Shown piece after piece: positions 53,168-62,760 of a stretch of DNA of 64,000 nucleotides (within the stretch, counting starts at the first letter, position 1; every line of letters begins with the position of its first letter). The notes under the pieces were generated by a model, which saw only the letters and a program-made list of their open reading frames with translations, searched no databases and had not been told where the DNA came from. Source of the stretch: Mycolicibacterium doricum (GTDB lineage: Bacteria > Actinomycetota > Actinomycetes > Mycobacteriales > Mycobacteriaceae); contig NZ_AP022605.1 in assembly GCF_010728155.1 (NCBI RefSeq), positions 2,542,001-2,606,000 of the forward strand. The letters are read 5' to 3'. The position numbers and the translations under genes are program-made.

Positions 53168-54574
53168 CTATCCGGCCACCACCCTCCACACCAGTCCGGC
53201 ACCAACTCCCAGCGCGAGGCTCAGGACCGCGGCACCGACGGCCGTGGCAACGGACCAGGACGTGACCGGGAACGCGTCGTCGCGTCCGTCCACCCGCTGG
53301 TAACAGGGCGCAATCCAGCGCAAGTAGTAGAAGAGGCTGATAAGGGTGTTGACGAAGACGACGACCGCCAGCCACGCCGCACCGCCGTCCCAGGCGGCGC
53401 CTGCGGTGGTCAGCTTGCCGACGAACACGGCGGTCGGCGGGGTTCCCAGCAGTCCGAGCAGTGCCACGACCAATGCCCCTGCCAGCCACGGCCGTTCGTA
53501 GGCCAGCCCACGATAGGAGCCGAGGTCCCGAAGTCCGGGCAGCGCGGTGGAGACCGCGAACGCGGCGACGTTCGTGACGGTGTAGGCGATCAGGTAGAAC
53601 AGCAGCGCCGGGACGGCGAGGTCGCTGCGCCCGACGACGGCCACCGGCACCAACAGGTAACCGACCTGGCTGACCGTCGACCAGCCCAGCAGCCGCCGGG
53701 GGTCGCTCTGCCAGTAGGCGGCCAGATTGCCCAGGGTCATGCTCGCGACCGCCAGCAGCCCGATCAGCAGCGGCCAGGCGATGGTGTCGGGAAGCAGGTC
53801 GGCCAGTCGGTACAACGCGATCAACGCGCCGACCTTGGGCACGGTGGTCACGAACATCGCCACGGTGCCGGCAGCGCCCTGCGCCGCGTCGGGAATCCAG
53901 AAGTGCGCCGGCACGCCGCCGGCCTTGAACAACAGCCCCCCGAGGATTCCGATCAGACCGGCGGCGACGGCGCCGGACGGTGCGGTGCCGAGTTCGCCGG
54001 CCACCTGTGGGTACCAGGTGCCGCCCGTGACCCCGTAGAGGACGCTGACCCCCAGCAGCAGAAGGATCCCGAACAGCGCTCCGAGCAGGTAGGTCTTCAT
54101 CGCCGCCTCGGCCCCGGTGGCGGTGCGGGCTAGCCCGATGAGCGCATACAGCGGAATGCTGGCGAGCAGATATCCGGCGACGAGCACGATCAGGTCGGCC
54201 GTGCCGGCGAGGACGAGCACCCCGGTGGTGGCGAACAGCAACAGTGCGTAGATCTCGCTTTCCCGTGCGGAGCCCGCGATTTCGTCACCCGCCACGGCGA
54301 GCACCGCCAGCAGGCCGACGGCGGAGGCGATGCGCGCGACGCCCGTCGCGGTGTCCACCACGAAGGTGCCGTCGAACGCCACCCCATCGGATCCGGCGAG
54401 CTGGACCGCCGCGACGACACCGGCGCCGCAGAGCGCCGCGGCGGCCACCACGCGACCCCACCACTGGCGGCGCCGCGCCAGGAACGAGCCGCCGATCAGC
54501 ACCGACAGTCCCGCACCGAACACCAGCATCTCCGGCAGCATCAGCGTCAGGTGCATCCCGGTGTTGGGGTTCAC
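53168..54574 (-). CDS. nuoN: NuoN-like subunit of complex I-like membrane arm
   Basis: A 468-residue antiporter-like subunit with about 14 helices. The helix 7 Lys ([13 protein letters not shown]) and helix 8 Lys ([19 protein letters not shown]) of the proton path are kept. The helix 5 Glu is not: E. coli NuoN has GIELISLPL, here the segment reads GYLLASIPL, with Leu at the Glu position. The GTG start at 54574 lies three bases after the nuoM stop; an ATG six codons on is possible. It is the last gene of the eight-gene operon. It could have lost proton pumping or use a different path. Confidence 0.88.
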
Positions 54575-54577
54575 CGC

Positions 54578-56074
54578 CTACCTCCCGACAAGGCCGATCA
54601 GCACCGCGGCGGCCGGTTCGACGGTGTCGAGCAGCACCCGGGGAACGAGGCCGATCACCACGGAAAGCGCCAACAGCATGGCAGCCGACCACATCTCGGT
54701 TCCCCGAAGGTCGACGAAACCGATTGAGCGCAGCCGAGTTTCACCGGTGAAGATGTGCTGAAAGGCGCGCAGGAACAGCGCCGCGGTGATCACGATGCCC
54801 GGCAGCGCGACCGCGGTCACCGGGGCGGCGGCGATGCTGCCGGTGAAGATCTGGAACTCGGCGATGAAGCCGGAGAAGCCGGGCAGCCCGAGGGAGGCGA
54901 ACGCCCCGATCGCGAACAGGGCGGCGAGTTTCGGCGCGGGGCCGGCGAGTCCGCCGTACTCCTTGATGGCGTAGCTGCCGGTGCGCGCCTGGAACACACC
55001 CGCGAGGAGGAACAGCGCGCCGGTGATCAAGCCGTGGCTGACCATCTGAGTGACCGCGCCGCTGACGGCGACCTCGCGAGCTTGAGCGGTGTCGGCGGCG
55101 ACGAGGCCGGCGGCGCCGACCGCCAGCACGATGTAGCCCATGTGGTTGACCGACGTATAGGCGATCATCCGCTTGAGGTCGTCCTGGGCCAGCGCGACCA
55201 GGGCCCCGTAGAGCACCGACACCACGCCGACGGCGATGATGCCCCAGGCCCAGTCCCGCCACGCCTCGGGCAGCATCGGCATTGCGATCCGGAGGAACCC
55301 GTACGTGCCCATCTTCAGCAGCACGCCGGCGAGCACCGCCGACCCGATCGCCGGGGCGTCGGTATGCGCGGGCGGAAGCCAGGTGTGAAACGGGAAGGTC
55401 GGCGTCTTGACGGCCAACCCCACGACGATCGCCGCCAGTACCAGACCTCCGGCAAGCGGGCGGCCCGCCAGCGGAGCGGCGGCCGCCAGTTCCACCATGT
55501 CGAACGTGTGCGGCTCGGCGCCGATGTAGAGGCCGATGAAGCCCACCAGCAAAGCCAGTGACCCCAGGAACGTGTAGAGGAAGAACTTCAGCGCCGAGCG
55601 GCCCCGGTCACCGTGACCCCATCCGGCGATGACGAAATACATCGCCACGATCGACAGGTCGAAGAACAGGAAGAACAGGATCAGGTCGGCCGCCACGAAC
55701 AGGCCCAGGCTCACCGTCTGCAGGAACAGGAAAAGTGCGGCCTGGGTCCGCGGCCGATCAGTGTCGCGCAGGCTGTAGACGGCGCACGCCAGGAAAACCA
55801 CCGAGGTCATCGCGACAAGCGGCAGCGACAACCCGTCGACACCGACGTGATAGCTGCTGTTGACCCCGGGAATCCAGGGGACCTGCTCCTCGAAGGCCAA
55901 TGCGCCGGGCCCTGGTGCGGTGTACCGCCACCACAACACCCCGGCCAGAACCACCTCGACGGCCGTGACCGCCACCCACAGCCGACCGGCGAGCGCATCG
56001 GACACGGCAGGCACCGCCAGCAGCGTCACGGCGGCGGCCAATGGGAGAAACACGACGATGCTGAGCACGCTCAC
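54578..56074 (-). CDS. nuoM: NuoM-like subunit of complex I-like membrane arm
   Basis: A 498-residue antiporter-like subunit with about 14 helices. It has LFFDLSIVAMYFVIAGWGHG, where E. coli NuoM has Glu144 and this protein Asp. Lys residues in helix 7 (SALKFFLYTFLGS) and helix 8 (VKTPTFPFHTWLPPAHTDAP) are present, as are DDLKRMIAYTSVNHMGYIV and the broken helix 12 (HGLITGALFLLAG). The GTG start at 56074 overlaps the nuoL stop by 4 bases. Of the three antiporter-like subunits it is the most canonical. Confidence 0.88.
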   Translation of the reverse strand: MSVLSIVVFLPLAAAVTLLAVPAVSDALAGRLWVAVTAVEVVLAGVLWWRYTAPGPGALAFEEQVPWIPGVNSSYHVGVDGLSLPLVAMTSVVFLACAVYSLRDTDRPRTQAALFLFLQTVSLGLFVAADLILFFLFFDLSIVAMYFVIAGWGHGDRGRSALKFFLYTFLGSLALLVGFIGLYIGAEPHTFDMVELAAAAPLAGRPLAGGLVLAAIVVGLAVKTPTFPFHTWLPPAHTDAPAIGSAVLAGVLLKMGTYGFLRIAMPMLPEAWRDWAWGIIAVGVVSVLYGALVALAQDDLKRMIAYTSVNHMGYIVLAVGAAGLVAADTAQAREVAVSGAVTQMVSHGLITGALFLLAGVFQARTGSYAIKEYGGLAGPAPKLAALFAIGAFASLGLPGFSGFIAEFQIFTGSIAAAPVTAVALPGIVITAALFLRAFQHIFTGETRLRSIGFVDLRGTEMWSAAMLLALSVVIGLVPRVLLDTVEPAAAVLIGLVGR

Positions 56075-57999
56075 CTCACGGCAACAAGGAGTAGGACGGC
56101 GAGGACGACGGTGACCACGGCGCTCATGTAGTACTGGTGCAGCAGGCCGGTCTGCGGCTTTCGGGCCAGCTCCCCCAGCCGCCGCATCAGCGTGGCGGTT
56201 CGCTCCACCAGGCCGTCCACGTCGCGGCGATCCGCGCGCGCGGCCGCGGCAGCGGAGGCCATGGTGCCCGCGGCGGTCGCGTCCACGGCCCGATCGAGGA
56301 TGTTGTGGTCGAACCCGGCGAAGACGCGCGACAGGGAAAGGGTCCGCAGCGCGACGGCGGATATCGACCGGTCGAGGACCCGGTCGTCGAATTGGGCGAG
56401 GACGCCCGCGAGCAGCATGGTGGGTGCGACCACCGACGCGTGTGCGGCCCTCTCCAAGCCCAGCCACGACGCCAACCACCTCGGCTCGGGCGCACCCCAC
56501 CGCAGCACCGCGAGCACAACCACGACGGCGAGCACGGCCGAGATCATGAGCTCGAGCACCGTGGCATGTGCGGTGGGGCCGGGATCGAGGGCTTGGCCCA
56601 GCCGCGTACCTATCGGCGGCAGCGCGAGCACGCCGGTCACCGCCGCGCCCGCCGCCAGGATGGCCAGCGGTACCCGTTCAAAGAAGCTGGGCGACGATCG
56701 ACGTGGCTTGCCTGGCTGGCGTTGCGCGGGCCGGCCCCAGATGACCAGCAGGATCTTGCCCGCGTACGCGGCCGACAATGCGGCCGCCGTCAGGCCCGCC
56801 AGATACAGCCATATCGAGTGTTCGCGGGCAACCGCCAACACGGCGTCCTTGGTCGCCCACAGCGACAACGGTGCAACACCCGCCAGGGCCAGGGCCGAGA
56901 CGCCGGCCGTCACCCCGATCAACGGCCAGCGCCGCGCGATCCCGCGCAGCTCGGTGAGGCGCTTGCTCCCGACCAGCGACAGCCATGCACCGGCGGCCAG
57001 GAACAGGCCGGCCTTGGTGAAGGCGTGCGCGACCAACTGTGCGGCGCCGCCGCCGACCGCGGCCAGTCCGGCGGCCATCACGACGAAGCCCAGTTGCGCG
57101 GCGGTCGACGCCGCGAGCAGTTGTTTGAGGTCGCGCTGGGCGACTGCGACCGCCCCCAGCAGGACGGCGGTCGCGGCCCCCAGCCATGCGGCGGCCGTGG
57201 CTGCCCATCCGGACGCCGCGAGCAGCGGGCCCATGCGCAGCAGCAGGTAGGCGCCCATCGCGACCATCGCCGCGGAGTGCAGCAGCGCGCTCACCGGACT
57301 CGGCCCTTCCATCGCACGCGAGAGCCAGAACGAGAACGGCAGCTGCGCCGCCTTGCCCAGTGCGGCGACCAGGACGCCCGCGGCGATGGCGTGTCGCCAT
57401 CCGCTCGAGGCGTCCGCCATGTCGGCCAGCGCGAGTCCCGCACCGCCGGCCAGCGCGGCGCCGCCGGCGAGGTAGAGACCGAGGTCGGCCGCGCGGGTGG
57501 TGACAAAAGCGGTCAGACCGGCCGACACCCGGTACGTCTGCCGCCATCGCCAGCCGATCAGGGCGTAGGAGGCGGCCCCCATCACTTCCCACGCCAACAG
57601 CAGCGCAGGCAGGGTGGCCGCGGTGGCGGTCAGCATCACCGCTGCGGCGAACAGGAGCATCAGGCCGTGGAAGCGACCACCCCGCACCGCGCCGTCGCCG
57701 ACGGCGAAGACCAGCACCAGCAGCGTGATGACGGCGACGGCGGGCACCACGGTCGCCGACAACGCGTCGACGCTCAAGGCGAAGTCCGCACCGCCCATGA
57801 ACGGCACACTGACCGTGGGCCTGCTGACGGCGACCACCCCGGCCAGCACCACCCCGACCGTGGCCGCCCCCACCGAGGTGACCGAGGCCAGGCGGTCGGC
57901 CGCGGGGCGGCGAAGGTGGTTGACCAACAACACCACCCCGGCGGCGGCGGGCAGTGCGACCAGACCCCACAGCGACCACTGCGCCAACGACGCCGTCAT
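56071..57999 (-). CDS. nuoL: NuoL-like subunit of complex I-like membrane arm
   Basis: A 642-residue NuoL-like protein. The core has LLAWEVMGAASYALIGW with the helix 5 Glu, LPFSFWLSRAMEGPSPVSAL (Lys of canonical helix 8 region replaced by the SFWLSRAMEGP form), LKQLLAASTAAQLGFVVMAA and AHAFTKAGLFLAAGAW. The C-terminal ~150 residues contain a long amphipathic segment (AAARADRRDVDGLVERTATL) and a last helix, as in real NuoL with its lateral helix. ATG at 57999 is four bases after the nuoK stop. Confidence 0.88.
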   Translation of the reverse strand: MTASLAQWSLWGLVALPAAAGVVLLVNHLRRPAADRLASVTSVGAATVGVVLAGVVAVSRPTVSVPFMGGADFALSVDALSATVVPAVAVITLLVLVFAVGDGAVRGGRFHGLMLLFAAAVMLTATAATLPALLLAWEVMGAASYALIGWRWRQTYRVSAGLTAFVTTRAADLGLYLAGGAALAGGAGLALADMADASSGWRHAIAAGVLVAALGKAAQLPFSFWLSRAMEGPSPVSALLHSAAMVAMGAYLLLRMGPLLAASGWAATAAAWLGAATAVLLGAVAVAQRDLKQLLAASTAAQLGFVVMAAGLAAVGGGAAQLVAHAFTKAGLFLAAGAWLSLVGSKRLTELRGIARRWPLIGVTAGVSALALAGVAPLSLWATKDAVLAVAREHSIWLYLAGLTAAALSAAYAGKILLVIWGRPAQRQPGKPRRSSPSFFERVPLAILAAGAAVTGVLALPPIGTRLGQALDPGPTAHATVLELMISAVLAVVVVLAVLRWGAPEPRWLASWLGLERAAHASVVAPTMLLAGVLAQFDDRVLDRSISAVALRTLSLSRVFAGFDHNILDRAVDATAAGTMASAAAAARADRRDVDGLVERTATLMRRLGELARKPQTGLLHQYYMSAVVTVVLAVLLLVAVR

Positions 58000-58003
58000 C
58001 GCC

Positions 58004-58306
58004 TCACCCGGCCAGATCCGTGGCCATGTCGGTCATGTCGGCCTGCCGGTCGCGGTGCAGCAGCGTGGCCACCGCGAACCCCATCGCCATCTCCACGGTC
58101 ATCGCGGCGACGATTACCATCAGCAGCACCTGGCCCGTCGGGTGGGGCGCCAGAAACCACCAGAAGCCCGCGCCCGCGAGGATCACCGCGTTGATCATCA
58201 GCTCCAGACCCATCATCACCATGACCACGACCTGCTGGGACAGGGCACCGTACAGGCCGACGCTGAACACCGCGGCCGCCACCAGCAGCACCGTCTGCAG
58301 GGTCAT
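58004..58306 (-). CDS. nuoK: NuoK-like subunit of complex I-like membrane arm
   Basis: A 100-residue three-helix protein. Both conserved membrane glutamates of NuoK are present: GLELMINAV (helix 2) and MTVEMAMGFAV (helix 3). Methionine is again frequent (VVVMVMMGLELM, QADMTDMATD). ATG at 58306 overlaps the nuoJ stop by 4 bases (ATGA). Confidence 0.9.
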   Translation of the reverse strand: MTLQTVLLVAAAVFSVGLYGALSQQVVVMVMMGLELMINAVILAGAGFWWFLAPHPTGQVLLMVIVAAMTVEMAMGFAVATLLHRDRQADMTDMATDLAG

Positions 58307-58878
58307 CGGCCGACCCCTCCCGGTTGCGGGTCGCTGGCCGGTCGCCGTCGCAGGTCGTCGCCGAACCGGTCGTAGCGGGTGCGCCGCACGGCCAGCACCA
58401 CCCCGCCGACGATGGTCGCCACCATCACGGGGCTGATGACCACCATGGCGAGCATCTTCTGGCCCATCAGCGCGTCGCCGAGCGCGGCCGTGACGTCCGC
58501 CGGCGGCGATCCGCGCCGCGGCGGCCAATCCACCAGCAGGATGCCGGTGGCCAGGAGCAGGAACGTGCCGATCGAAATGGCCAGCGACATCCGTTTGCCG
58601 TGCACCATGCTCATCGGCATCAGCGCCGGATTCATCCCCATGAACATGACCATGTAGACCGCCATCACGGCCATCTCCATGACCATCATCAAGATGACGA
58701 CGACCCCGACGTAGTTCTGCTGGAGCAACAACACCGCCACCCCGACGGCGATGAAAGACGTCGCCAGGGCGTAGGTCGCCCTGGCCATCGAGTCGACGAC
58801 GAATACTGCCGCGCCGGCGAGCAAGGCGGTACCGCCGGCGGCCCAGAATACGGCCCCGAAGACAATGTCCGCGAGCAT
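58303..58878 (-). CDS. nuoJ: NuoJ-like subunit with methionine-rich membrane segment
   Basis: A 191-residue NuoJ-like protein with about five helices. The N-terminal part is usual for the family (ALATSFIAVGVAVLLLQQNY). Residues 64-97 are not: within these 34 residues there are 13 methionines (MMVMEMAVMAVYMVMFMGM, then LMPMSMVHGKRM) where other NuoJ proteins have mixed aliphatic residues around the coupling helix. The C-terminal tail is soluble and Arg-rich. ATG at 58878 follows the nuoH stop by five bases; no nuoI (ferredoxin subunit) lies between them, unlike in real nuo operons. The Met run suggests soft-metal contact (inference). Confidence 0.87.
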   Translation of the reverse strand: MLADIVFGAVFWAAGGTALLAGAAVFVVDSMARATYALATSFIAVGVAVLLLQQNYVGVVVILMMVMEMAVMAVYMVMFMGMNPALMPMSMVHGKRMSLAISIGTFLLLATGILLVDWPPRRGSPPADVTAALGDALMGQKMLAMVVISPVMVATIVGGVVLAVRRTRYDRFGDDLRRRPASDPQPGGVGR

Positions 58879-58883
58879 GGTCG

Positions 58884-59807
58884 CTACCTCCAGACGGCGA
58901 CGATCGCCACGATCAGGTCCTGGACCAGCACGGCAGGCAGCAGCACGAGCCAGCCGATCTCCATGAACTTGTCCGGCCGCAACAGTGGCAGTCGGCGCCG
59001 CAACCACACCAGTACCGTCAGCAGGGCAACCGTTTTCACGAGCGTCCACAACCAGTCCGGCAGCAGCGGGCCGGCGCCACCGCCGAGGAACAGAGGCACC
59101 GCGAAGGCCGACCCCGCCGCCAGTAGTGCGTACCGCCCGATCACCACCAGCAGGCGATCGGCACCGGACAACTCGGCGGCCACCCCGCCGGCGATGTCGG
59201 CTCCGAATGCCGCCGACATCGGCCCCCACACCGAAAATCCTGCCACCCCAAGGGAATAGACGGCGAACGCCACAGGCATCCACACCACGTACCACAGCCC
59301 GTGTTGCGCATCGGCCACCGTGCCGATGCGCAGACTCTCGGCGGCGATGGCGGGGGCGACCAACGCGAACATCAGCGGCAGTTCGTACCCGAGCCCCTGA
59401 GCCAGAAACCGGTACCCGCCGACGAGTGAGTGGGTCGAATTCGCGCCCCATCCCGCGAGCCACACCAGCGCCCACACGCAAACGTCCATCGCGTTGAACC
59501 ACACGACGCCCACGTCGAGGTCGAAGAGCGTCCATCGGCCCAGCGGCACCACCGTCACCATCAGCAGGGCGACCGCGATCAGTCCCCCACCGCCGATCCG
59601 CCACAACACCCTGTCCGCCGCGACGGTGACCCGCCGTCGCTGCCGAAACAGCCGGGCCGATTCCGACAACGGGGCGAGGGCACGCGCGGTGACACCGTCT
59701 TCCCAGGCGGTGAAGGCACCGTCGAGTGTTGCGGCGTAGTAAGCCAGGCCGATGAGCAAGGCGGCGGCGACAATTGCCCACATTCCGGACACCGTGGTGA
59801 TCGTCAT
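58884..59807 (-). CDS. nuoH: NuoH-like subunit of complex I-like membrane arm
   Basis: A 307-residue NuoH-like protein with about eight helices. The signature GWGANSTHSLVGGYRFLAQG then LGYELPL aligns with the NuoH motif GWaSNxxYsLLGxxRxxAQxxSYE. The quinone-channel loop is degraded: canonical FDLPEAEQELxxGYxxEYSG has become FGADIAGGVAAELSG, losing most of its acidic residues, and the later GEY is GRY. The ATG overlaps the fusion-gene stop by 4 bases. It is probably still the heel of the membrane arm but unlikely to guide quinone normally. Confidence 0.87.
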   Translation of the reverse strand: MTITTVSGMWAIVAAALLIGLAYYAATLDGAFTAWEDGVTARALAPLSESARLFRQRRRVTVAADRVLWRIGGGGLIAVALLMVTVVPLGRWTLFDLDVGVVWFNAMDVCVWALVWLAGWGANSTHSLVGGYRFLAQGLGYELPLMFALVAPAIAAESLRIGTVADAQHGLWYVVWMPVAFAVYSLGVAGFSVWGPMSAAFGADIAGGVAAELSGADRLLVVIGRYALLAAGSAFAVPLFLGGGAGPLLPDWLWTLVKTVALLTVLVWLRRRLPLLRPDKFMEIGWLVLLPAVLVQDLIVAIVAVWR

Positions 59808-61042
59808 GGTGCGCCGACCCCGGCGTGCAGCGACGTTTCGATACCCAAACCGGCGACGGTGAGGCGCGCCGTGGCAATGTCGAGCCCGCCGACCAGGTGT
59901 GGCAATGCCTCCGTGACGGTTCGGGTGTCGACGTGAAAGGGATTGACCATCAGCGGGTCCGACACCAGATCGCCCATGACGTCCGACCTTGTCAGCAGCC
60001 GGGTGTACGCATCGCCTTCCAGCGCGGCCGGCAGTCGTCGTCGGCCAAGCTCCTGGCGCGTCAGCAATCCGACGTCACGCAACGACCAGCGCAGCAGCAC
60101 CGATCGGCGCACGGCGCGCTGGAGCTTGCCCAGCAGCCGCACCGCGTTCTCGTTCTCGTCTGCCAGCAGCAGATCCCGGCAGCGCCGTGCGATCGCGGCG
60201 CCGCGGGGCCAGCCCACCAGGGCGAGCACGTCGTGGATGTGGTCGCATTCCCGCGCCGCCCCCAACGCACCGTCGAGCGGTGACGATTCTGACCGATCGC
60301 CGGCATGCCGCGCGGCGCCGACGATCCAGGCCCGCGCCTCGGTGATGACGTCTCCGTTGATGCTGCAGCGCAACACCAGTCCGGCCGGCCAGTACGGCAG
60401 CACGGGACCCAGCCGCAGATGCAGTGCGTCCATCTCCAGCCCGTCGCGGTCCTCGGTCCCCTGCGCCAGCGCGATACCTTCCGGCGCCATGTCCATGTCC
60501 ATATCGCCGTGATCCATGCCACCGTGATCCATGCCGCCGTGATCCATCTCGCCGTGTCCACCGTGATCCATGCCACCGTGATCCATGCCACCGTGATCCA
60601 TGCCACCGTGATCCATGTCACCGTGATCCATGTCACCGTGATCCATGTCGCCGTGATCCATGTCGCCGTGATCGCCGTCGGCGCTGATATGGGGCCGCTG
60701 CGGTCTGCTTCGCGCGTCGGCGCGCTGGCGGTCATCATGGAGCAGTTCGGCGGCGGCGCGGTCCAATTGGGCTTCGACGTGCGAAGGGCCGGGGACGTCG
60801 ATCCTGACTCTGGGCCCAGGCAGCTGATCCCAGATCCGATCGATGACAGCGGACAGTTCGGGCCCCGGCACGCCGCAGACCGCGAGAACGTCGGCGTCGG
60901 CGGCCGACAACGCATCCCGCCACCCTCGATCGAGGATGTGCCGTTGCAGGTGAGAACGCGTCACCCACTGTCCGGGCACCTCCACGGTGAGCACATGGAC
61001 GCCGCGAACGGCGAGCTCGGCCAACGTCTGCCTCACACCCAT
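59804..61042 (-). CDS. NuoB-like/NuoD-like fusion with MDHG metal-binding-type repeat
   Basis: A 412-residue protein that takes the place of nuoB, C and D. Residues ~1-105 resemble NuoB (ADADVLAVCGVPGPELSAVI, DRIWDQLPGPRVRI), but the cysteines that hold cluster N2 are absent; only Cys56 is left. Residues ~123-186 are a repeat with ten MDHG units, ending DMDMDM. Residues ~204-412 start LHLRLGPVLPYWPAGLVLRC, aligning with the NuoD N-terminus ([20 protein letters not shown]), then diverge and are much shorter than NuoD. MDHG-type repeats occur in copper-resistance proteins such as PcoA/CopA. ATG at 61042 overlaps nuoA by 10 bases; GTG at 61036 gives the commoner 4-base overlap. Partial nuo clusters with B/D relatives exist in Streptomyces as I recall; I know no description of this form. 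Confidence 0.72.
   Translation of the reverse strand: MGVRQTLAELAVRGVHVLTVEVPGQWVTRSHLQRHILDRGWRDALSAADADVLAVCGVPGPELSAVIDRIWDQLPGPRVRIDVPGPSHVEAQLDRAAAELLHDDRQRADARSRPQRPHISADGDHGDMDHGDMDHGDMDHGDMDHGGMDHGGMDHGGMDHGGHGEMDHGGMDHGGMDHGDMDMDMAPEGIALAQGTEDRDGLEMDALHLRLGPVLPYWPAGLVLRCSINGDVITEARAWIVGAARHAGDRSESSPLDGALGAARECDHIHDVLALVGWPRGAAIARRCRDLLLADENENAVRLLGKLQRAVRRSVLLRWSLRDVGLLTRQELGRRRLPAALEGDAYTRLLTRSDVMGDLVSDPLMVNPFHVDTRTVTEALPHLVGGLDIATARLTVAGLGIETSLHAGVGAP
60488..60676 (-). repeat. 15-bp coding repeat specifying MDHG(D/G) units
   Basis: The minus strand encodes DGDHG, four DMDHG, three GMDHG, GHGEMDHG, two GMDHG and DMDMDM. That is ten MDHG tetrapeptides in about 63 codons. At DNA level it is a 15-bp unit with few synonymous changes, so it has expanded recently or is being homogenised. 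Asp, His and Met dominate the tract, which is expected to be disordered until it binds metal. Confidence 0.95.
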
Positions 61043-61377
61043 CGCAGTGCGCCCTCCCGCCACGCCCACGCCACCGCGACGAACAGCGCCCCCAGGAACA
61101 GGAACATCTCGACGATAGCCTTGAGGCCCAGCTCCGCGACGACGATCGCCCACGGATACATGAACAGCATCTCGACGTCGAACGCCAGGAAAACCAGCGT
61201 CGCCGGATACCAGCGGACGTGATAGCGCGACAACGCGTGTTCCTCCGGCTGCCACCCGGATTGGTACGGCAGTGACGTTAGTGCGTTCGGGGCCACCGCG
61301 GTGAGCCGGTGCAACCCGTATACCGCCGCCGTGCCGACCACTGTCACCAACAGCATCGACGCCACGCCGGTGTACAT
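61033..61377 (-). CDS. nuoA: NuoA-like subunit, first gene of the complex I-like operon
   Basis: A 114-residue three-helix NuoA-like protein. The helix 2 region FLAFDVEMLFMYPWA keeps the conserved Asp and Glu. The loop that in NuoA/ND3 carries YECG (Cys near the quinone site) reads YQSGWQPEE here, so both the Glu and Cys are lost. ATG at 61377 has a strong GGAGGGAG site. The 260-base gap upstream (61378-61637) is the only non-overlapping start in the operon and must hold its promoter; I see no clear CsoR or RicR copper operator in it. Confidence 0.88.
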   Translation of the reverse strand: MYTGVASMLLVTVVGTAAVYGLHRLTAVAPNALTSLPYQSGWQPEEHALSRYHVRWYPATLVFLAFDVEMLFMYPWAIVVAELGLKAIVEMFLFLGALFVAVAWAWREGALRWV

Positions 61378-61637
61378 GGCCAGCTCCCTCCGGTATCGAG
61401 GCCGCCGCGGCCGACGGGAGGCCTGGGACAAGGTTCCCCGTCGAAACCCCGGTAAACACCGCACCCCGAGACCACGGGCGAGCGTCCTCCCGAGCGCCGC
61501 GGTTCGGCTCGCGTCAGACCCCCGACATCGGCTGTGCGCGGGCCCACCGACGGGGGTTGAACTCGAGTTGCCGGGCGGGGTTCACGGTGCCGCACACGGC
61601 AGGGGGTGCGCTTCTGGCCTCACCTATGCTCGAAGAC

Positions 61638-62252
61638 ATGGCGTCGCAGTGGAGGACGTTTCAGCGGTTGGCGGAGAAGCTGGTGTTCCAAGAGGCACCC
61701 AAGGTCATCCGCCAGCTCCAGCAGTCCGAGAACCGTCCGCGCACGGTGCAGCAGGGCATCAACCAGGGTCTCAAGATCGGATTGGGTGTGGGCCTGTCGG
61801 CACTCGCGGGCGCCTCCAGTGCGGCCTCGCCCGCTATCACCGCGGGCCGCCCGGTGACGCAGAACAGCGTTCCCACCGCGCAGCGCGCCCGCAAGATCGT
61901 CTACGCACCCAACCTCGACGGGCGGGCCGACCCCGGGGAGATCGTCTGGACCTGGGTGGTCTACGAGGACGACCCGAGTCGCGGTAAGGATCGTCCCGTT
62001 CTGGTCGTCGGCCGTGATCGGCGGACGTTGCTAGGCCTGATGCTGTCGAGTCAGGACCATCACGTCGACGACCCGGACTGGGTTGCCATCGGCGCCGGCA
62101 GCTGGGACTACGATGGCCGGACCAGCTGGGTACGGTTGGACCGGGTGCTCGACGTGCCAGAGGAAGGCATTCGCCGCGAGGGCGCTATTCTCGACCGCGA
62201 CCGTTTCGACGTGGTCGCCACACGACTGCGCACCGAGTACTTCTGGAGCTGA
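61638..62252 (+). CDS. MazF/PemK-like fold protein (Rv2405-like)
   Basis: A 204-residue protein. The N-terminal ~100 residues are helical and Ala/Gly-rich. The C-terminal ~100 residues have the PemK/MazF pattern DPGEIVWTWVVYEDDPSRGK then DRPVLVVGRDRRTLLGLMLS. No antitoxin gene is adjacent, and the position and conservation with Rv2405 suggest a stable chromosomal function rather than a toxin. A TATGCT -10-like element (61625-61630) lies seven bases before the ATG at 61638, so it may be leaderless; ATG 61626 is the alternative. The last codons lie in a 16-bp tandem repeat. Confidence 0.75.
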   Translation: MASQWRTFQRLAEKLVFQEAPKVIRQLQQSENRPRTVQQGINQGLKIGLGVGLSALAGASSAASPAITAGRPVTQNSVPTAQRARKIVYAPNLDGRADPGEIVWTWVVYEDDPSRGKDRPVLVVGRDRRTLLGLMLSSQDHHVDDPDWVAIGAGSWDYDGRTSWVRLDRVLDVPEEGIRREGAILDRDRFDVVATRLRTEYFWS

Positions 62253-62282
62253 GTACTTCTGGAGCTGAGTCCTTCTGGAGCT
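62235..62282. repeat. 16-bp unit repeated three times over a stop codon
   Basis: GAGTACTTCTGGAGCT is at 62235-62250 and 62251-62266, with a third copy at 62267-62282 that has one substitution. The first copy encodes the C-terminal EYFWS and the stop TGA straddles copies one and two, so the duplication extended the 3' non-coding side without altering the protein. Confidence 0.9.
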
Positions 62283-62284
62283 GA

Positions 62285-62330
62285 GGGGCGCGGCCCCCAC
62301 GATCACACATCGATCACCGCCGGGCGGTGA
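62285..62330. terminator. Two hairpins between convergent genes
   Basis: GGGGC (62285-62289)/GCCCC (62293-62297) with a 3-base loop, and TCACCGC (62314-62320)/GCGGTGA (62324-62330) with loop CGG. The second abuts the stop codon of the minus-strand CBS gene. Together they are a likely bidirectional terminator for the MazF-like and CBS genes. Confidence 0.6.
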
Positions 62331-62331
62331 C

Positions 62332-62760
62332 TCACCCTCCGCTGATGTAGGCGTGCAACCGTTCCTGTTCGGCCTGCAGCTGCTCCATCCGCGTCTTGAC
62401 CACGTCGCCGATGCTCACGATCCCGGCCAGCCCGCCGTTGTCGAGCACCGGGACGTGCCGGACACGGTTGTTGGTCATCAACGCCGACATATCGTCGACG
62501 AGATCGTCCGGCGTACACGTCACCACGACGTTCGTCATGATCTCCGAGACGGGCTGACGCAGCAGATCGGCACCCCGTTCGTGCAGTCGGCGCACCACAT
62601 CTCGCTCGGAGACCATCCCGACGATGCCGTCGGGCCCGACGACGACCATGGCGCCGATGTTGTGGGTGGCGAGTTCGGCCAGCAATCCGGTGACCGTGGT
62701 GGCCTCGGTGATGGTCGCCACCGCCGAGCCCTTGCTGCGCAGCACATCCGCTATTCGCAT
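62332..62760 (-). CDS. Two-CBS-domain protein (Rv2406c-like)
   Basis: A 142-residue protein made of a pair of CBS domains: VLRSKGSAVATITEATTVTG, then GIVGMVSERDVVRRLHERGA, then PDDLVDDMSALMTNNRVRHV and GIVSIGDVVKTRM. Such stand-alone pairs bind adenine nucleotides and regulate partners; none is evident. The gene probably has its own promoter: minus-strand CTAACCTAAT at about 62793-62802 is a -10-like element 33 bases upstream of the ATG. It corresponds to Rv2406c. Confidence 0.9.
   Translation of the reverse strand: MRIADVLRSKGSAVATITEATTVTGLLAELATHNIGAMVVVGPDGIVGMVSERDVVRRLHERGADLLRQPVSEIMTNVVVTCTPDDLVDDMSALMTNNRVRHVPVLDNGGLAGIVSIGDVVKTRMEQLQAEQERLHAYISGG

Follow-up and report, generated by a model that had tools for sequence, protein, structure and literature searches.

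The operon described here lies on the minus strand of a 64,000-nucleotide stretch of Mycolicibacterium doricum DNA (contig NZ_AP022605.1, positions 2,542,001 to 2,606,000; hereafter the window) and comprises eight open reading frames running from position 61377 to 53168: nuoA, a fusion gene designated BD, nuoH, nuoJ, nuoK, nuoL, nuoM, and nuoN. Sequence comparisons suggest that it encodes a redox-free paralogue of respiratory complex I that serves the detoxification of copper, or a similar soft metal, probably by proton-driven export of Cu(I); the probability of this reading is roughly 0.55. The broader proposal, that the complex is linked to copper and performs no redox chemistry, is highly probable. 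A metal-binding insert in BD, methionine-rich NuoJ, NuoK, and NuoA subunits, and a repeated copper-gene context together point to copper rather than to another electron donor.

The existence of the eight-gene operon is confirmed. The nuoA-like gene (61033..61377; 114 aa; PF00507, 1.8e-25) is followed by BD (59804..61042; 412 aa), a nuoH-like gene (58884..59807; 307 aa; PF00146, 2.9e-43), a strongly diverged, Met-rich nuoJ-like gene (58303..58887; GTG start at 58887; PF00499, 5.5e-10), and a nuoK-like gene (58004..58306; 100 aa; PF00420, 1.6e-10). The series ends with genes resembling nuoL (56071..57999; 642 aa; PF00361, 1.1e-44), nuoM (54578..56074; GTG start; TIGR01972, 1.2e-141; PF00361, 1.2e-63), and nuoN (53168..54574; GTG start; TIGR01770, 3.3e-81; PF00361, 1.4e-47), all on the minus strand. 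Adjacent genes overlap by 10 bases (A/BD) or 4 bases (BD/H, J/K, L/M) or are separated by 4 (K/L) or 3 bases (M/N); the H/J overlap is 4 bases with the nuoJ start at GTG 58887, or 7 if counted from 58890. Overlaps of 4-10 and gaps of 3-4 bases bear out the tight coupling of eight genes described in an earlier sequence-only reading of the window, which was also correct that nuoC, nuoE, nuoF, nuoG, and nuoI are absent from the operon. In the genome (4.03 Mb, one contig), E, F, G, and I were seen, by eye, just in a separate canonical nuo operon. This second operon, about which the same reading had asked, does exist, at G000:C1 1.062-1.078 Mb; its L/M/N and B subunits were identified by Pfam, J and M by profile, and the others by eye from translations.

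BD is best described as a fusion of a NuoB-like part, a metal-binding insert, and a NuoD-like part, as profile matches and a fold model indicate. The NuoB-like part (approximately residues 1-115; 60698..61042) matches NuoB over residues 45-85. The insert (approximately residues 121-186; 60485..60682) is, on direct reading, rich in Met, His, and Asp, carries MDHG repeats, and ends with an MDM motif. The NuoD-like part occupies residues 195-407 (59822..60460). BD matches no Pfam family at 0.001 and matches NCBIfam nuoB_fam weakly (0.057); its profile matches a solved NuoB chain (1.9e-5) and a 49-kDa NuoD chain (0.0035). The fold model has a mean predicted local distance difference test score of 81 and a predicted template modelling score of 0.77, and fold comparison, with rows mainly covering residues 195-407, backs the NuoD part. 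Direct hhalign comparison of the actinobacterial BD profile gave a probability of 0.5 with the genome's own single NuoD and 24, a weak value, with its own NuoB. The NuoB/NuoD-like identity, already proposed from the sequence, is settled by the longer relatives and the fold model, with profiles supporting both parts and the fold supporting the NuoD part. Just before DGL, ahead of the NuoD-like strand, an MxM motif is present in 114/120 and 110/120 BD relatives of two subtypes. The insert occurs in three kinds, which agree with three branches of the NuoM tree wherever BD was read. Direct reading of the window's BD found no CxxC pairs of the type that provide the metal ligands of group 4 [NiFe] hydrogenase large subunits.

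The residues required for electron transfer to quinone are lost from this fusion. When 240 BD proteins were aligned with the genome's own NuoB, none had Cys at any of the four columns that hold the N2 cysteines; three of these columns consist almost entirely of gaps, so that the segments themselves are absent and have not simply been substituted. The quinone-site motif GPxHPxxH is present in 0 of 241 BD proteins. The loop at the equivalent position could be located in 234 of them; its usual sequence is GPLFPGLPG or GPVLPxWPA, with one His elsewhere in some of the latter. In E. coli NuoD, residues His224 and Tyr273 sit at the quinone site (PMC8357420). Alignment with NuoD of E. coli and of this genome puts Pro at the Tyr position in ten long-type rows, and the region is missing in the actinobacterial type. 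BD is read as keeping NuoB-like and NuoD-like domains but lacking both the quinone-site motif and the ligands for iron-sulphur clusters, and the initial expectation that NADH-quinone chemistry is unlikely holds.

Membrane subunits in the coupling core appear to have been rebuilt with potential metal ligands. NuoJ was aligned across 56 family rows, some near-identical, and compared with 32 rows: E. coli NuoJ, the canonical NuoJ of this genome (entered twice), and 29 others from Actinomycetota that scored highly and were treated as canonical. In residue numbers counted from base 58890, from which 1 is subtracted for the GTG start at 58887, M35, M68, M69, M73, M76, M80, M84, M86, M93, M95, H97, and M146 each have the same letter in 55/56 rows and a gap in one; all twelve occur together in 54/56, and E72 is present in 55/55. 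The family letter occurs at each site in 0 or 1 of the 32 canonical rows. Across all 55 aligned rows, helix 3 and the loop that follows it (58600..58689; M68, M69, E72, M73, M76, M80, M84, M86, M93, M95, and H97) thus have nine Met, a Glu, and a His that do not vary. M69, M73, M76, M80, and M84 lie on one face of the helix; all seven helix Met considered together are less clearly one-sided, since 4% of random placements do equally well. NuoK has gained M29, M69, and M73 (55 or 56 of 56 rows) while keeping E36 and E72, and NuoA has gained M70 and M73 (53/53 rows) and H53 (48/53) near its conserved D67/E69 pair; the comparison sets for these two subunits hold only 2 and 1 canonical rows, respectively. 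The NuoJ loop and NuoA H53 presumably face the cytoplasm. Among the other subunits, compared in 13-row sets, new invariant charged, aromatic, or Met residues number none in NuoL, one Arg in NuoH, one Glu in NuoN, and three in NuoM.

In canonical complex I, NuoJ V58, Y59, and A62, NuoA D79, and NuoK E36 belong to the E-channel, with NuoJ helix 3 as its gate, as described in PMC13324432. E. coli NuoJ Tyr59 and Ala62, invariant in the canonical set, correspond to M69 and E72 in the family. By these alignments, conserved Met, Glu, and His residues have been newly acquired by NuoJ, NuoK, and NuoA at the E-channel, which links the quinone site to the proton pumps. His-rich C-terminal NuoJ tails, a second metal-binding region outside BD, were seen at four loci (L123 2179-3075, L135 14741-15451, L133 14792-15418, and L120 15827-16441).

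The proton path itself is largely kept. In 13 family rows, with E. coli numbering, NuoL retains E144, D178, K229, H254, H338, K342, and K399; NuoM, for which the window's own row was out of frame and is disregarded, retains K234, K265, and E407, with position 144 Asp in most rows and otherwise Glu; and NuoN retains K247 and K395, as well as K217 except in M. avium, where it is Glu. NuoK E36 and E72 and the NuoA acid pair are likewise kept. Changes include NuoN H305 to Gln, NuoH E241 to Arg, and the loss of NuoH E157 in proteobacterial and Rubrobacter rows. The antiporter-type subunits thus appear to preserve, with few exceptions, the conserved Lys/Glu path of respiratory complex I.

Phylogeny separates the family from ordinary complex I in the one subunit treed, NuoM. 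In a tree of 84 rows, from which L255 was left out because it gave no reading frame, the family (25 rows, one protein appearing twice) is monophyletic with support of 100/99 and a stem of 0.59; it stands apart from the canonical NuoM of Actinomycetota and Proteobacteria and has members from both phyla. The suggestion that these subunits fall outside ordinary Nuo is upheld for NuoM. When BD was searched against 5.8 billion proteins, 8000 candidates were scored, of which 1052 matched at E <= 0.001; 120 of these were listed, and the closest named relatives among them are mostly Mycobacterium/Mycolicibacterium, followed by Kocuria and other Actinomycetota. A NuoJ match at 1e-15 was found in 22 of 296 sampled Actinomycetota genomes, and a BD match in 23/119 genomes, 15 of them genuine (including M. 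doricum) and 8 weak. When 72,556 plasmid records were searched by tblastn with two NuoJ queries, 31 matched, and all 28 that were read hold the operon, the other three being from M. avium. No phage matched the Sulfitobacter NuoJ. Many carriers are marine; others are soil, clinical, and sediment strains.

The gene set is not a chance arrangement, because 33 of 43 scanned loci hold all eight genes in the same order, some genes being in pieces in L044, L051, and L053. Of the other ten, eight are truncated by contig ends, L041 has no detectable nuoL, and L063 is unrelated, its BD match being a different His-rich protein. The other 31 BD matches among L063-L095 were discounted as repeat-only; just L070, a Marinobacter, encodes family membrane genes (tblastn, 1e-10). 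L041 (13284-15355) is a Quadrisphaera locus, and the undetectable nuoL would belong between its nuoK and nuoM. On the Ornithinimicrobium plasmid L053, a CopA-like ATPase and several genes of the operon are fragmented, suggesting island decay or sequencing errors.

The genes surrounding the operon repeatedly concern copper. Copper or heavy-metal efflux genes lie beside it in 23 of the 28 plasmid records read, one of which, L302, has only a heavy-metal P-type ATPase. An automated marker scan found copper markers in 11/16 plasmid stretches and in the operon flanks of 9/15 whole genomes (25 markers in 340 kb), compared with 2/20 cation-efflux regions (392 kb) and 1/20 fixed positions in three genomes (400 kb). 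The Fisher value against both controls is 1.2e-4, a calculation that ignores the kinship of loci. With Pfam CsoR, which is independent of the marker set, seven genes fall within 10 kb in 6/15 genomes, where 0.17 would be expected. Among 25 other contigs with short flanks, eight have a marker. The M. doricum genome contains five CsoR genes and no PF07732 multicopper oxidase.

In 7 of 59 loci, the 300 bases preceding nuoA contain a palindrome of the form TA-CCC-GGG-TA, where 0.16 would be expected; the 59 include L123, for which there is no upstream sequence. The exact sequence TACCCCN3GGGGTA is found at six of the seven. It occurs 57 times in 15 genomes, as opposed to twice for its reversed form. 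At least 15 of the 57 sites lie within 500 bases of a CsoR gene, and on account of this proximity the pattern is taken here to be the probable CsoR operator. Two of the six exact upstream sites, approximately 290 bases from nuoA, may belong to a divergent csoR. The scan for upstream operator sites found no CueR box.

If the complex exports copper, the pathway would likely involve: capture of cytosolic Cu(I) by the BD insert; transfer to MxM, where the quinone pocket used to be; and outward passage up the ladder of Met residues in NuoJ helix 3, powered by proton return through NuoL, NuoM, and NuoN. Cu(I) as the substrate, the outward direction, and the proton drive are each inferred, and translocation along this route has about an even chance of being correct. 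Whether the complex represents a new transporter class, a complex I turned proton-driven Cu(I) exporter in which the quinone module became a metal-capturing cap and the E-channel a methionine ladder, is a more tentative matter, with the odds slightly against it. The sequence-only reading had envisaged an ion-translocating complex driven by, or driving, something other than NADH-quinone chemistry; its membrane arm and degenerate NuoB/NuoD-type protein stand, and the metal sites and copper context had been overlooked.

Several observations weigh against this proposal. NuoH, which helps to form the quinone tunnel, has gained no Met in the family alignment, NuoN E133 is lost (now Leu or Val), and Met-rich helices can arise from other causes. 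Five of the 28 plasmid records, from Rhodococcus, Gordonia, Pseudarthrobacter, Paracoccus sediminicola, and Thioclava, have no copper gene, and several records are near relatives of one another, such that related loci are not independent. The copper marker set was itself derived from operon-linked plasmids; neither the Fisher nor the Poisson values allow for this dependence or for kinship, and three genomes supplied the 20 fixed control positions. No copper gene lies nearby in 6/15 genomes and in 17/25 other contigs with short flanks, and one of the 15 genomes (G116) also has a cation-efflux gene within 10 kb. Neither the 13.6 kb upstream nor the 5.1 kb downstream of the window's own copy contains a copper marker, and no palindrome within 2 mismatches occurs anywhere in the window. 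The role proposed for this copy is drawn from relatives that share the same ladder and whose BD is mostly 50-65% identical.

Related operons have been reported under other interpretations. Penn and Jensen (2012) placed a seven-gene partial NDH-1 operon of Salinispora among marine adaptation genes (PMC3314556), and a 2018 paper on Kocuria flava gave the same reading to a partial NDH-1 operon of nuoA, H, J, K, L, M, and N, calling its gene order consistent with S. arenicola (PMC6002675). These operons (Salinispora 'partial 2' and K. flava S43) share the seven membrane-arm genes, and Kocuria flava carries BD relatives (P0021, P0059); in contrast to the present account, the available text of the two papers mentions neither BD nor copper, and Salinispora is compared by description only. 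Eddie et al. (2021) described a NuoADHJKL cassette within a copper operon of Marinobacter atlanticus, placed by the authors themselves in the copper gene set and co-expressed with copper resistance genes, and suggested that it uses copper redox energy (PMC8233155). As described in the accessible text, this cassette resembles the operon in its setting but consists of A, D, H, J, K, L, and one unnamed protein, with no M or N listed, and neither lost redox residues nor a Met ladder is described; the comparison rests on description. L070, a different Marinobacter that carries a family operon, has no copper marker in its stretch. The earlier belief that no function had been described was therefore nearly right. 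In the open-licence literature searched, as far as its text was available, no account was found of how BD is built, of the Met ladder, or of a copper link across phyla; new here are the architecture of the fusion, the loss of redox residues, the ladder, and a distribution that crosses phyla.

Like respiratory complex I, the operon has membrane subunits A, H, J, K, L, M, and N in order, keeps most proton-path residues, and includes NuoB and NuoD relatives in BD. Unlike it, the operon lacks NuoC, E, F, G, and I, the N2 cysteines, and the quinone-site motif, its NuoJ, NuoK, and NuoA are rebuilt with Met, and its NuoM forms a separate clade. Mrp cation/proton antiporters also use NuoL/M/N-type subunits without redox chemistry; they are not known to have NuoH, NuoA, or a NuoB/D-like cap. 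The operon, by contrast, has NuoA and NuoH, and all eight of its genes are assigned, none as MrpE, F, or G. A CO2-hydration system of the DabAB type was also considered and set aside, there being no DabA-like gene among the eight. CTR-type copper transporters pass Cu(I) through a Met-lined passage; the likeness is limited to this idea, as their fold differs and no homology is claimed.

The same evidence must be weighed against other functions. In the reading proposed by Eddie et al., copper oxidation or reduction at BD would power proton pumping by NuoL, NuoM, and NuoN (PMC8233155). The copper context, co-expression, metal sites in BD, and kept pump residues would fit this, but the absence of GPxHPxxH from all 241 proteins, with Pro at the Tyr position in the ten long-type rows aligned and that region missing from the actinobacterial type, makes a quinone partner unlikely, and the operon encodes no other electron partner; this reading is rather unlikely. 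Alternatively, the metal may merely switch ion flow through a copper-gated cation/proton antiporter or proton channel, restoring pH or potential during copper stress without copper transport. The same metal sites and contexts would serve such a switch, and PMC13324432 and PMC8357420 describe NuoJ helix 3 as gating complex I by conformational change. Against this, nine Met along the whole helix and loop, with more in NuoK and NuoA, would seem to exceed the needs of a switch; gating is unlikely, though not strongly so.

A general sodium/proton or osmotic adaptation pump would accord with the marine interpretation of partial NDH-1 in PMC3314556 and PMC6002675 and with the many marine carriers. 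It is improbable given the metal ligands, the linkage to copper genes, the CsoR-type palindrome, and carriers that are also soil, clinical, and sediment strains. A complex I variant using ferredoxin, F420, or subunits borrowed from the canonical operon could draw on the NuoB/NuoD-like nature of BD; with N2 cysteines in 0/240 and the quinone motif in 0/241 proteins, it is very improbable and close to refuted by sequence.

Other features were noted around these loci. Directly upstream of nuoA in the window (61557-62760) are genes putatively labelled MazF-like and CBS by the sequence-only reading. On several Rhodobacterales plasmids, genes for a lone 'proton-conducting transporter membrane subunit' and DUF6629 lie beside the operon (L124 9064-9579, L304 7205-8428, L305 1152-1955). 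On the Halomonas KO116 plasmid (L133, 20673-22945), the ergothioneine biosynthesis genes egtB and egtD directly follow nuoN, and on a Pseudarthrobacter defluvii plasmid (L128, 12453-14900), a record also without nearby copper genes, an IS3 element interrupts BD. The M. doricum genome further contains an Mrp-like pair at 0.29 Mb, identified by eye, and two Oxidored_q6 (PF01058) proteins besides NuoB (G000:C1:972947-973396 and 1492207-1492563), possibly hydrogenase small subunits.

It has long been asked how complex I passes redox energy on to its pumps. If the copper-export reading is true, a natural relative that has the pumps and the E-channel, and metal ligands in place of quinone chemistry, would reveal which parts make up the coupling engine, and coupling could be studied free of electron transfer. 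Copper biology would in addition gain a metal machine driven by protons, and the complex I family a new job, encoded by an operon that marine, soil, and clinical bacteria carry on plasmids and that is currently annotated as NADH dehydrogenase.

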